From Chryseobacterium gleum (GTDB lineage: Bacteria > Bacteroidota > Bacteroidia > Flavobacteriales_D > Sanyastnellaceae): a stretch of 36,852 nt of DNA. The notes under the pieces were generated by a model. That model worked only from the letters and a program-made list of their open reading frames with translations, had not been told where the DNA came from and made no database searches. Positions 23,385 to 31,439 of this stretch are shown one piece after another. The stretch lies in the NCBI GenBank assembly GCA_945869405.1, contig CAMBPD010000007.1, positions 1 to 36,852 on the forward strand, written 5' to 3'. The translations under genes and the position numbers were made by a program. Numbering within the stretch: the stretch's first letter is position 1; the number at the start of each line of letters is the position of its first letter.

Positions 23385-23447
23385 AGGTAATAGGTAATAG
23401 GTAATAGGTATTAGGTAATAGGTATTAGGTAATAGGTATTAGGTAGT
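23385..23447. repeat. 9-unit heptanucleotide tandem repeat behind gyrB
   Basis: Nine perfectly phased 7-bp units, AGGTAAT or AGGTATT with a last AGGTAGT. After three AGGTAAT units the two forms alternate, giving a 14-bp higher-order period. It starts 2 nt after the gyrB stop and lies before the terminator, so it would be transcribed. Microsatellite-like; copy number may vary. Confidence 0.9.
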
Positions 23448-29341: not shown

Positions 29342-30052
29342 CTATTTGGTCGCTCTGTTGGGACGAATGATGATCTCACTAATCACACTACCTGCAGGCG
29401 ATTCAATAGCATGCACGAGTTGATCGGCGATCATTTCTGGACGCAAACCTGCTGCAAAATAATCCTTGTATTGCTCTAGCATCTGCGCATTGGTGGTGCT
29501 GTCAATGAACGGGGTATCTACTGAGCCCGGACTGATGGTCGTAACACGGAGTTTATCCGACATTTCCAACCGCAAACTATCGCTGATGGCAATCAAAGCA
29601 TGTTTCGTTGCACAATAAACTCCCGAGTTGGGAAATACCTGATGCGAGGCTAAAGACCCCAAGTTGATCACATGGCCTCTAGCCTCAATGAGCGAAGGCA
29701 AGGCTACATGAATACAATTGAGCACGCCCTTGATGTTGACATCCACCATCGTATGCCACTCTTCGATTTTGCCGCCCACCAAGGTGTCGAAATAACCCAG
29801 TCCGGCGTTGTTGACCAACACATCGATGGAACCATGTTTCGCCAAAAAGGCTTCGATGGCTGCCTTAACCTGAACGTAATCGGTAACATCGCATGGAATG
29901 GCCTGTGCGTTTGCTCCAAGTTCGCTAGCCAAGTGCTGCAATTTCTCAGCTGAGCGCGCTATCAATCCTACGCGGTGACCCTTTGCACACAGCATGCGCG
30001 CGGTGACCTCTCCTATTCCGGAACTCGCTCCGGTGATGATGATGTTCTTCAT
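29342..30052 (-). CDS. short-chain dehydrogenase/reductase (classical SDR)
   Basis: A 236-residue NAD(P)-dependent oxidoreductase. The Rossmann glycine motif is TGASSGIGEV near residue 8, followed by LVNNAGLGYFD, the serine region INLGSLAS and the catalytic YCATK (YxxxK). The substrate cannot be deduced; the sequence resembles the YdfG/serine-dehydrogenase-like group. The open frame continues 31 codons upstream, but those codons are encoded by the heptamer repeat, so ATG 30052, right behind an exact -7 box, is the start. The gene converges with msrA. Confidence 0.92.
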   Translation of the reverse strand: MKNIIITGASSGIGEVTARMLCAKGHRVGLIARSAEKLQHLASELGANAQAIPCDVTDYVQVKAAIEAFLAKHGSIDVLVNNAGLGYFDTLVGGKIEEWHTMVDVNIKGVLNCIHVALPSLIEARGHVINLGSLASHQVFPNSGVYCATKHALIAISDSLRLEMSDKLRVTTISPGSVDTPFIDSTTNAQMLEQYKDYFAAGLRPEMIADQLVHAIESPAGSVISEIIIRPNRATK

Positions 30053-30056
30053 GCGC

Positions 30057-30064
30057 CAAAGATA
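30057..30064 (-). promoter_or_regulatory. -7 box of the SDR gene
   Basis: Minus strand TATCTTTG matches TAnnTTTG exactly and ends 4 nt (GCGC) before the ATG. The -33 position would lie within the heptamer repeat that begins 8 nt further on. Confidence 0.55.
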
Positions 30065-30071
30065 GGGGGAG

Positions 30072-30143
30072 AGATTAGAGATGACGGATGACGGATTACA
30101 GATGACGGCTGAATCCGTAATCTGTAATCCGTCATCTGTAATC
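30072..30143. repeat. heptamer-lattice inverted repeat upstream of the SDR gene
   Basis: Ten units of exactly 7 nt. The left part is built from variants of AGATGAC (GGATGAC, GGATTAC); after one or two spacer units the right part holds complementary variants (TCTGTAA, TCCGTCA). It contains a perfect 17-bp inverted repeat, 30087-30103 with 30120-30136, around a 16-nt loop, so the RNA or ssDNA can form a long cruciform. It lies against the SDR promoter and the terminator on its right. Confidence 0.88.
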
Positions 30144-30173
30144 AAAAAAAACCAGGCCCCTTTCGGAGCCTGG
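30144..30173 (-). terminator. strong minus-strand rho-independent terminator
   Basis: On the minus strand CCAGGC, one mismatch, CC/GG pairs and GCCTGG form the stem, followed by eight T (30144-30151). It must serve a transcript arriving from the right, whose only coding candidate is the short frame at 30229-30354. Weaker T content on the other side may allow use from the left. Confidence 0.8.
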
Positions 30174-30228
30174 CTTTGTTTATCAGTTTAAGCACAACAG
30201 GTCACATCACAACCTGCGGTATCGTTAT

Positions 30229-30354
30229 TCAATTCAAACAGTGGTAGAACGTTGGGTATCCCCAATCACTCCCGCACAATTGAATTGCCTCAAATCTTTT
30301 AATGTTGATGCGAATCTTGCATCGCCGATCGTTAGAGTATGGCTTCTTTTTCAT
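30229..30354 (-). CDS. possible small basic protein of 41 residues
   Basis: Frame ATG 30354 to TGA 30229 encodes 41 residues (MKKKPYSNDRRCKIRINIKR, then a Cys/Trp/Tyr-containing end), with codon choice like the neighbours. A second frame, in the register shifted by one base at the A5 run after the ATG, stays open past it to a TAA at 30188, ending NNDTAGCDVTCCA, just 14 nt from a strong terminator. Either this peptide, the frameshifted one, or a non-coding RNA explains the unit. No homology is recognised. Confidence 0.35.
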   Translation of the reverse strand: MKKKPYSNDRRCKIRINIKRFEAIQLCGSDWGYPTFYHCLN

Positions 30355-30485
30355 AGGTGAACAGAAATATTGTTAGGTCGAGTGGTTTAACGCGACCCCT
30401 CATTTAAAGGTTACACCCCTGCTTGATAAAATGTAAGAAACCCACTATAATGCTATACTCCTACAATCCTCTCTGCGATTTAAAC
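30355..30485. other. intergenic stretch with no recognised feature
   Basis: Between the small minus-strand frame and the second heptamer repeat. It should contain the promoter of the small unit; only an imperfect TAACCTTT is seen on the minus strand (about 30408-30415). No RNA gene or ORF is supported. Confidence 0.4.
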
Positions 30486-30558
30486 GTTGAAAGTTGAAAG
30501 TTGAAGGTTGAAAGTTCACGTAAGCCAACCTGCAACCTGCAACTTTCAACCTGCAACC
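30486..30558. repeat. second heptamer-lattice inverted repeat, behind the HMG-CoA-lyase-like gene
   Basis: Four forward 7-nt units (GTTGAAA, one as GTTGAAG), two spacer units, then four reverse-complement-like units (ACCTGCA three times, ACTTTCA once) and a partial one, all in unbroken 7-nt phase. The design equals the repeat at 30072-30143 although the heptamer is different. It lies 17 nt beyond the stop codon of the minus-strand gene, so it would be transcribed and could fold. Confidence 0.85.
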
Positions 30559-30575
30559 GAATCAACCGCCGATAT

Positions 30576-31439
30576 TCAATGACCAGCGAAAACGTTTTCT
30601 GCCAGTTGCAACGACGCCTGAAAAGCGGTTGCATCTATATTCATCTCCACTCCCAAATGCTGCAGGTGCCCAACCATGATCTCGGTGGGCATATTGCCCG
30701 TGAGCTTGTCGGTAGCCATCGGACAACCACCCAATCCTTTTATCGCGCCGTCAAACCGCTTGCATCCTGCCTGAAGGGCAGCCTCCAGTTTTTCGATGCA
30801 ACGATCGGGGGTGGTGTGCAAATGAGCGCCGAACTCTACCTGCGGCAAGGATGGTATGAGGGCATTGAATAAGGCCCCGATTGTGTCAGGTGTTCCTATT
30901 CCAATCGTATCGCTGAGTGCCAACATACGCACATCAAATTCTCTGTAAAGACGTTCACACCATTGCATGGCAAGCTCCGGACTCCATGCATCACCATACG
31001 GATTTCCAAAACCCATTGAAATGTAAACAACCAACTCCTTGTTGCTCTTCACACACAGCTCAGCGAGTTCACCAACTCTGGACAAGGACTCCTCTATTCC
31101 TGCATTGGTGTTGCGCTGCTGGAACGTCTCTGAAATGGAAAAAGGATAGCCCAAGAAATGTATCTCATCAAATGCAACCGCATCTTCTGCCCCGCGCATA
31201 TTAGCCACGATTGCCAACAACTTAGTCTGTGTTTCAGACAACTCAAGTAAACGTAGAACCTCAGCTGTGTCTCGCATCTGAGGAATCGCCTTGGGCGAAA
31301 CGAAACTGCCAAAGTCCAAAGTATCAAAACCAACCCTGAGCAATTGATTAAGATAACTCGCCTTTATTTCAGTGGGGATCCACTCGGATATGCCCTGCAT
31401 GGCATCCCGAGGGCACTCAATGATTTTCACATCAGTCAT
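30576..31439 (-). CDS. hydroxymethylglutaryl-CoA lyase-like enzyme
   Basis: A 287-residue TIM-barrel enzyme of the HMGL-like family. ECPRDAMQG near residue 8 corresponds to the substrate-binding E-x-P-R-D-G-x-Q motif, with Ala in place of the usual Gly. HLHTTPD gives the two metal-binding histidines; DGAIKGLGGCPMATDKLTGN carries the catalytic Cys and the flexible loop. HMG-CoA lyase cleaves 3-hydroxy-3-methylglutaryl-CoA to acetoacetate and acetyl-CoA in leucine breakdown. Related lyases with other substrates cannot be excluded. The gene stands alone, with an exact -7 box 4 nt before its ATG. Confidence 0.88.
   Translation of the reverse strand: MTDVKIIECPRDAMQGISEWIPTEIKASYLNQLLRVGFDTLDFGSFVSPKAIPQMRDTAEVLRLLELSETQTKLLAIVANMRGAEDAVAFDEIHFLGYPFSISETFQQRNTNAGIEESLSRVGELAELCVKSNKELVVYISMGFGNPYGDAWSPELAMQWCERLYREFDVRMLALSDTIGIGTPDTIGALFNALIPSLPQVEFGAHLHTTPDRCIEKLEAALQAGCKRFDGAIKGLGGCPMATDKLTGNMPTEIMVGHLQHLGVEMNIDATAFQASLQLAENVFAGH

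Follow-up and report, generated by a model that had tools for sequence, protein, structure and literature searches.

What makes two intergenic repeats less than 500 bp apart look alike when they share no sequence? The question is raised by a 36,852-nt stretch of DNA, here called the window, which is contig C7 of a fragmented 2.6-Mb assembly of 220 contigs. An earlier note had described two arrays of differing heptamers in it, each with forward units followed by complementary ones, and block reading, TRF and folding all bear out this description. Element B consists of a G-rich left arm (30073..30112, plus strand, units GAT[GT]AC[AG]) and a right arm that is C-rich on the plus strand (30112..30143, minus strand, reverse-complement units GAT[GT]AC[AG]). 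Read in 7-nt blocks from 30072, it runs AGATTAG AGATGAC GGATGAC GGATTAC AGATGAC, then GGCTGAA, then TCCGTAA TCTGTAA TCCGTCA TCTGTAA TC. Element A has a G-rich left arm (30486..30516, plus strand, units GTTGAA[AG]), a 10-nt spacer without strand (CACGTAAGCC, 30517..30526) and a right arm that is again C-rich on the plus strand (30526..30558, minus strand, reverse-complement units GTTG[AC]A[AG]). Its blocks from 30486 are GTTGAAA GTTGAAA GTTGAAG GTTGAAA, then GTTCACG TAAGCCA, then ACCTGCA ACCTGCA ACTTTCA ACCTGCA ACC.

The unit consensus is accordingly GATKACR in 30073-30143 and GTTGMAR in 30486-30558, and TRF assigns period 7 to both; Rfam gave no match within the window. Folding of 30480-30565 (element A) yields −27.9 kcal/mol (z −5.5 against shuffles), and that of 30070-30175, a stretch that includes the terminator adjacent to element B, −55.5 kcal/mol (z −9.7). 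The forward-then-complementary layout claimed as one architecture thus stands, whereas the unbroken 7-nt phase claimed for it is uninformative through the turn because unit boundaries can be rotated. The CACGTAAGCC spacer of element A is kept in three sister species, with a single change in one, and in sister copies of GTTGMAR the spacer, measured between the last GTT and the first AAC, ranges from 9 to 19 nt.

Along the minus strand come, in order, an HMG-CoA-lyase-like gene (30576..31439), whose stop codon (30576-30578) faces element A and lies close to its right arm; element A; a conserved 41-aa ORF (30229..30354) with its intrinsic terminator (30148..30177), which directly adjoins element B; element B; and a short-chain dehydrogenase gene (29342..30052), whose start faces element B. 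The gap between the two arrays is 342 nt, and they flank the small minus-strand unit, as had been noted. The 41-aa ORF, which is context outside the repeats, starts MKKKPYSNDRRCKIRINIKRFEAIQL, has its own terminator and no Pfam match, and is kept in five sister species. A third window array, AGGTA[AT]T × 8.7 (23385..23445, plus strand), has no inverted half; its AGGTAAT/AGGTATT units begin about 3 nt past the gyrB stop codon. The stretch 29342-30180, covering the terminator, element B and the dehydrogenase gene, is 89-94% identical to the sister species G007; the HMG-CoA-lyase-like gene is nearest to that of G001 (80%) and distant from that of G007 (72%). Comparison at this locus suggests that lineages have recombined here, with a junction close to the repeats; element B, the dehydrogenase gene and their flanks would have moved together, as in homologous recombination.

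The earlier note had supposed a class of element set by period and layout and not by sequence, and had proposed a scan of the genome and its relatives, in which either a lack of further arrays or the return of one heptamer, as in a single ordinary repeat family, would speak against it. In 2.28 Mb of DNA from the window's genus, the 208 kb of intergenic sequence hold 91 period-7 and 29 period-8 arrays, against 0.3 and 1.0 per run in a Markov-resampled control (three period-7 arrays in ten resamplings); these counts come from draft assemblies with genes from a simple ORF caller, and arrays below the TRF threshold are missed, as at one compared orthologous site. Among intergenic repeats of the genus, 7 is the predominant period. 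Many further arrays lie in the window's own genome, and those of the genus fall into about 49 unit classes, so the idea of one repeat family copied around is ruled out and the supposed class survives the scan. On the G-rich strand, cytosine makes up only 7% of the units. Of the eight genus genomes, the window genome included, seven contain GTTGMAR triplets and seven contain GATKACR triplets; GTTGMAR triplets are absent from all 32 genomes searched outside the genus. The search of G003 (99% complete), which covered these two patterns and 40 kb, found neither.

Two rules absent from the earlier note emerged from the orientation and position of these arrays. The strand that is rich in G and poor in C points away from the gene next to it, and paired arrays in a gap face each other, often being able to form a hairpin. 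Among neighbouring arrays within 120 bp in the 2.28 Mb, 36 pairs are G-first and one is C-first, with five further pairs in the same orientation and one that could not be oriented; when orthologous copies of elements A and B are counted once, the ratio is about 32 to 1. A whole-genome search for GTTGMAR returned 52 G-first and four C-first matches, all four of the latter in one satellite at G004:C138 6055-6460 (L340, L341). In this satellite, the only place with C-first GTTGMAR neighbours, the hairpins recur about every 90 bp with the spacer CACACCGGC. G-first pairs lie between tandem (13 and 11), convergent (7) and divergent (1) genes, and since polarity holds regardless of the direction of the flanking genes, transcription, R-loops or coding-strand bias do not explain it. 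A general bias of intergenic hairpins is rejected as well, its sign being opposite (55 G-first, 90 C-first). Single arrays without a partner show the same polarity (40:12). As for position, the median distance from a preceding stop codon to the start of an array is 3 nt, with 51 of 81 such arrays starting within 10 nt, and the median distance to a gene is 20.5 nt on the 5′ side of the G-strand versus 91.5 nt on its 3′ side. In repeats with periods of 9-13 and 15, anchoring is absent and polarity is not clear (17:11 and 18:18).

Comparison of orthologous gaps, carried out within the genus, shows that the unit sequence is free and differs among sister species at the same site. Site B holds four kinds of unit in six sister species: GATKACR in the window and G007, ATTAGTC/TGACAAA in G004, AGTACTA plus TTCACCAT in G001 and G005, and CACGAATG in G006. 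In G001 and G005, gains lie on the outer side of a variant unit, and growth is therefore not confined to the centre. Site A carries the GTTGMAR hairpin in four species and none in two; the gene-proximal units GTTGCAG GTTGAAA GTTGCAG are common to the four, among which copy number varies on the spacer side. After gyrB, four species have AGGTAAT, ACTAGTG (two species) or AAGTGCG, with no more than about 7 nt between the stop codon and the start of the array. Three species differ at one convergent gene pair, where each has its own inverted array (7-mers in one, 8-mers in two) that fills the gap from stop to stop. In gaps not picked for arrays, an array in one species makes one in another species more likely, with an odds ratio of about 13 (p 0.0008) that derives from few sites, non-independent species pairs and a looser orthologous-site score at four thresholds, adopted after the strict score had given no shared sites and had missed clear ones.

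How the two arms of a pair relate to each other bears on the suggestion that such elements are copied by template switching at a hairpin. Arms belong to one unit family in 21 of 32 genus pairs, compared with 11% of random pairs, and are unrelated in ten, some of which set a 7-mer against an 8-mer. In a comparison of 14 GTTGMAR hairpins, the two arms of one element have a mirror identity of 0.832, versus 0.845 for arms taken from different elements; in this small sample there is no sign that arms co-evolve toward pairing. The ten unrelated pairs and the mirror identities rule out a fold-back copy as the sole origin, and template switching does not hold as the whole mechanism. Because two thirds of pairs do share one unit family, fold-back may nevertheless start an element, with slippage scrambling the arms later.

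The same features recur outside the genus. The GTTGMAR hairpin pattern matched at least 118 stretches in several phyla, with about one estimated by chance, and the matches listed include records named Bacteroidota, Chloroflexota, Verrucomicrobiota, Acidobacteriota, Cyanobacteria, Firmicutes and others. Across the 859 kb surrounding these matches, with the matched sites excluded, period 7 is again the commonest (131 arrays), the units are quite different, and neighbouring pairs are 34 G-first to 4 C-first; these loci were chosen for one heptamer in G-first layout, several of them come from the same genome, and they are not a random bacterial sample. With matched sites included, 73 of 107 arrays after a stop codon are no more than 10 nt away from it. 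The idea that GTTGMAR hairpins had spread horizontally among phyla was considered and set aside: their hosts carry many other heptamers, and convergent recurrence would suffice.

Any model of these arrays has to meet four demands, namely polarity toward the centre of the gap irrespective of gene direction, anchoring at the gene edge, a free unit sequence and a fixed period. We tentatively read the two window arrays, with somewhat less than even confidence, as members of a general bacterial class of strand-polarised 7- or 8-nt tandem arrays at gene boundaries, with a mutational origin. Such arrays would be built and rebuilt by a mutational process that works on DNA ends within intergenic gaps. 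Where a 3′ end lies close to the edge of a gene, it would be extended in repeated 7-8-nt rounds, by slippage or by short templated synthesis in which the same end, the opposite end through fold-back, or another array serves as template, and the extended ends would then be rejoined. The outer limit would be set by coding sequence, since selection acts against losses that reach into it. Fold-back would give arms of one family, and independent extension unlike arms. The proposal claims no dedicated function or enzyme. The geometry of the arrays is what suggests this scheme: extension of 3′ ends followed by rejoining would fit polarity, anchoring and free sequence; the period of 7-8 nt does not follow from it, nor does it account for the absence of C from the extended strand. 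Neither Ku nor a reverse transcriptase domain (RVT_1) was found in the eight genus genomes, seven of which carry arrays, and rejoining would therefore need another route and extension an ordinary polymerase. A broader version, in which a sequence-independent process general to bacteria extends C-poor 7-8-nt repeats outward from gene edges at DNA ends and leaves scars resembling telomere fusions in the intergenic gaps of many phyla, is rather doubtful; under it the unit would be whatever sequence is at hand, with only period, polarity and gene-edge anchoring fixed. A role of the units as stop-codon back-ups in three frames, given that periods of 7 and 8 shift the frame, was dropped: by eye, many units contain TGA, TAG or TAA, but AAGTGCG and AAGGGCG do not.

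The main rival to end extension is selection, in which slippage would produce arrays at random and intergenic hairpins would be kept as bidirectional terminators or protectors of mRNA 3′ ends. The strong folding of the window elements, the three different stop-to-stop hairpins at one convergent gene pair, the ability of the arms to pair in two thirds of cases and the tolerance of terminators for any sequence are all consistent with it. However, a third of the pairs cannot pair well, the arms show no co-variation, and a canonical terminator already stands beside or between the arms at several sites. A hairpin also works equally well G-first or C-first, so polarity is not predicted, ordinary intergenic hairpins even lean C-first, and arrays with no partner to pair with keep the polarity nonetheless. 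On balance, we regard hairpin selection as unlikely. Mobility offers another route to many hairpins. REP and REPIN sequences are intergenic, form hairpins, occur in many copies, and have a conserved sequence and a partner transposase; the arrays described here resemble them in the first three respects and differ in that their sequence is free. Spread of REP/REPIN-like or MITE-like elements by a Y1 (RAYT-type) transposase would fit the presence of Y1_Tnp in all eight genus genomes, the position of some Y1 genes near arrays and the probable joint transfer of element B and the dehydrogenase gene. Yet arrays are so common that many genes have one nearby, Y1_Tnp also occurs in G003, where GTTGMAR and GATKACR were not found, and the shared element B appears to have moved with its flanks in the manner of homologous recombination. 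No conserved palindrome of the REP/REPIN kind unites the roughly 49 unit classes, the units at one site vary among sister species, and neither fixed ends nor target duplications were seen by eye at the compared orthologous sites. These observations make a mobile origin improbable.

Two further explanations take the polarity itself as their starting point. Chi recognition by RecBCD or AddAB requires a set orientation relative to the entering enzyme, and the arrays are oriented as an enzyme that comes in from the middle of the gap would require. They might accordingly act as oriented recombination hotspots, in which Chi-type units face a fragile centre and shield genes from resection; the units are short, G-rich and C-poor, and a putative lineage junction lies at the window locus. 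Chi, however, is one sequence per species, whereas the genus has dozens of unit classes side by side, and a single genome can hold several, which leaves this explanation very improbable. The arrays also have the geometry of a head-to-head telomere fusion, in which both 3′ ends at the central break would be C-poor and G-rich, as if a telomerase-like reverse transcriptase had added repeats to both ends of a break and Ku-dependent joining had fused them. The lack of RVT_1 and Ku in all eight genus genomes, seven of them with arrays, strongly disfavours this in the genus, and about 49 unit classes would require many templates; we find it scarcely credible.

Parts of this picture were already known. 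Xanthomonas GGGAATC repeats are G-rich degenerate heptamers, about 90% intergenic, with 70-75 convergent pairs per genome; they lie 28 nt from the 5′ neighbouring ORF and 160 nt from the next, and prominent arrays occur at different genes in two species (PMC4692102). The arrays of the genus resemble them in being intergenic heptamers in convergent pairs near the 5′ ORF (36 G-first to 1; 20.5 versus 91.5 nt). That study dealt with one unit family, read as G-quadruplex repeats (PMC4692102), whereas here many units coexist in a genome, arms may carry unlike units, most units are not G4-like, and polarity extends across phyla. The window units GATKACR, GTTGMAR and AGGTAWT contain no GGG tract, and thus fall outside G-tract or G-quadruplex repeats of the Xanthomonas type. 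Several tandem heptanucleotides in one genome are likewise described for cyanobacterial repeats in Calothrix (cited in PMC4692102). TAACTGA arrays in Beggiatoaceae, Cyanobacteria and some Bacteroidetes are, according to the available part of the source, similarly intergenic, mixed with other heptamers in some genomes, and may be lacking from a locus in relatives; they are mostly direct and just upstream of starts, with one indirect repeat in the main genome, and that part gives no polarity rule (PMC4679880). Tandem heptamers were also recognised by SPADE as the most abundant intergenic repeats across a wide range of prokaryotes, matching the present arrays in period, location and wide distribution; in the available part of that report, the authors state that they have no clue to function, and inverted layout, polarity and orthologous-site comparison are not described (PMC6344855).

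Literature searches for the unit sequences returned nothing relevant. As far as the literature searched shows, what is new is that one rule covers many units in a genome, that the arms may be unlike, that units turn over while the site stays fixed, and that unrelated phyla agree in polarity. Three rules summarise the arrays: a period of 7 or 8 with a C-poor strand, a G-strand that leaves the gene edge, and sequence turnover at fixed sites, of which those on period and polarity hold in the window's genus and at loci of several other phyla. Such shared rules explain the likeness of the two window arrays despite their different sequences. The rules make the puzzle of the abundant bacterial 7-letter repeats testable, each rule at scale, and separate a directional mutational origin from selection for hairpins.

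Some loci that came up in the searches have features of their own. At G000:C16 1762-1862 (L058), heptamer arrays have a repeat unit of 38 bp, TGGACGCGCAGCAGCGCGTCCCTGACTTATATTAGCCT, next to them. On L187, a contig from a MAG recorded as 'Chryseobacterium gleum', the hairpin spacer is identical to that of G001:C281 and nearly so to that of G000:C143, and this record may belong, under a wrong name, to a relative of the window's genus. In the Desulfoscipio loci L158, L179, L188 and L203, and also in L208 and L240, GTTGAAAGTTGAAA lies inside the palindrome GGTGCCAGGTGTTGAAAG...CACCTGGCACC, a different REP-like family picked up by the GTTGMAR pattern.
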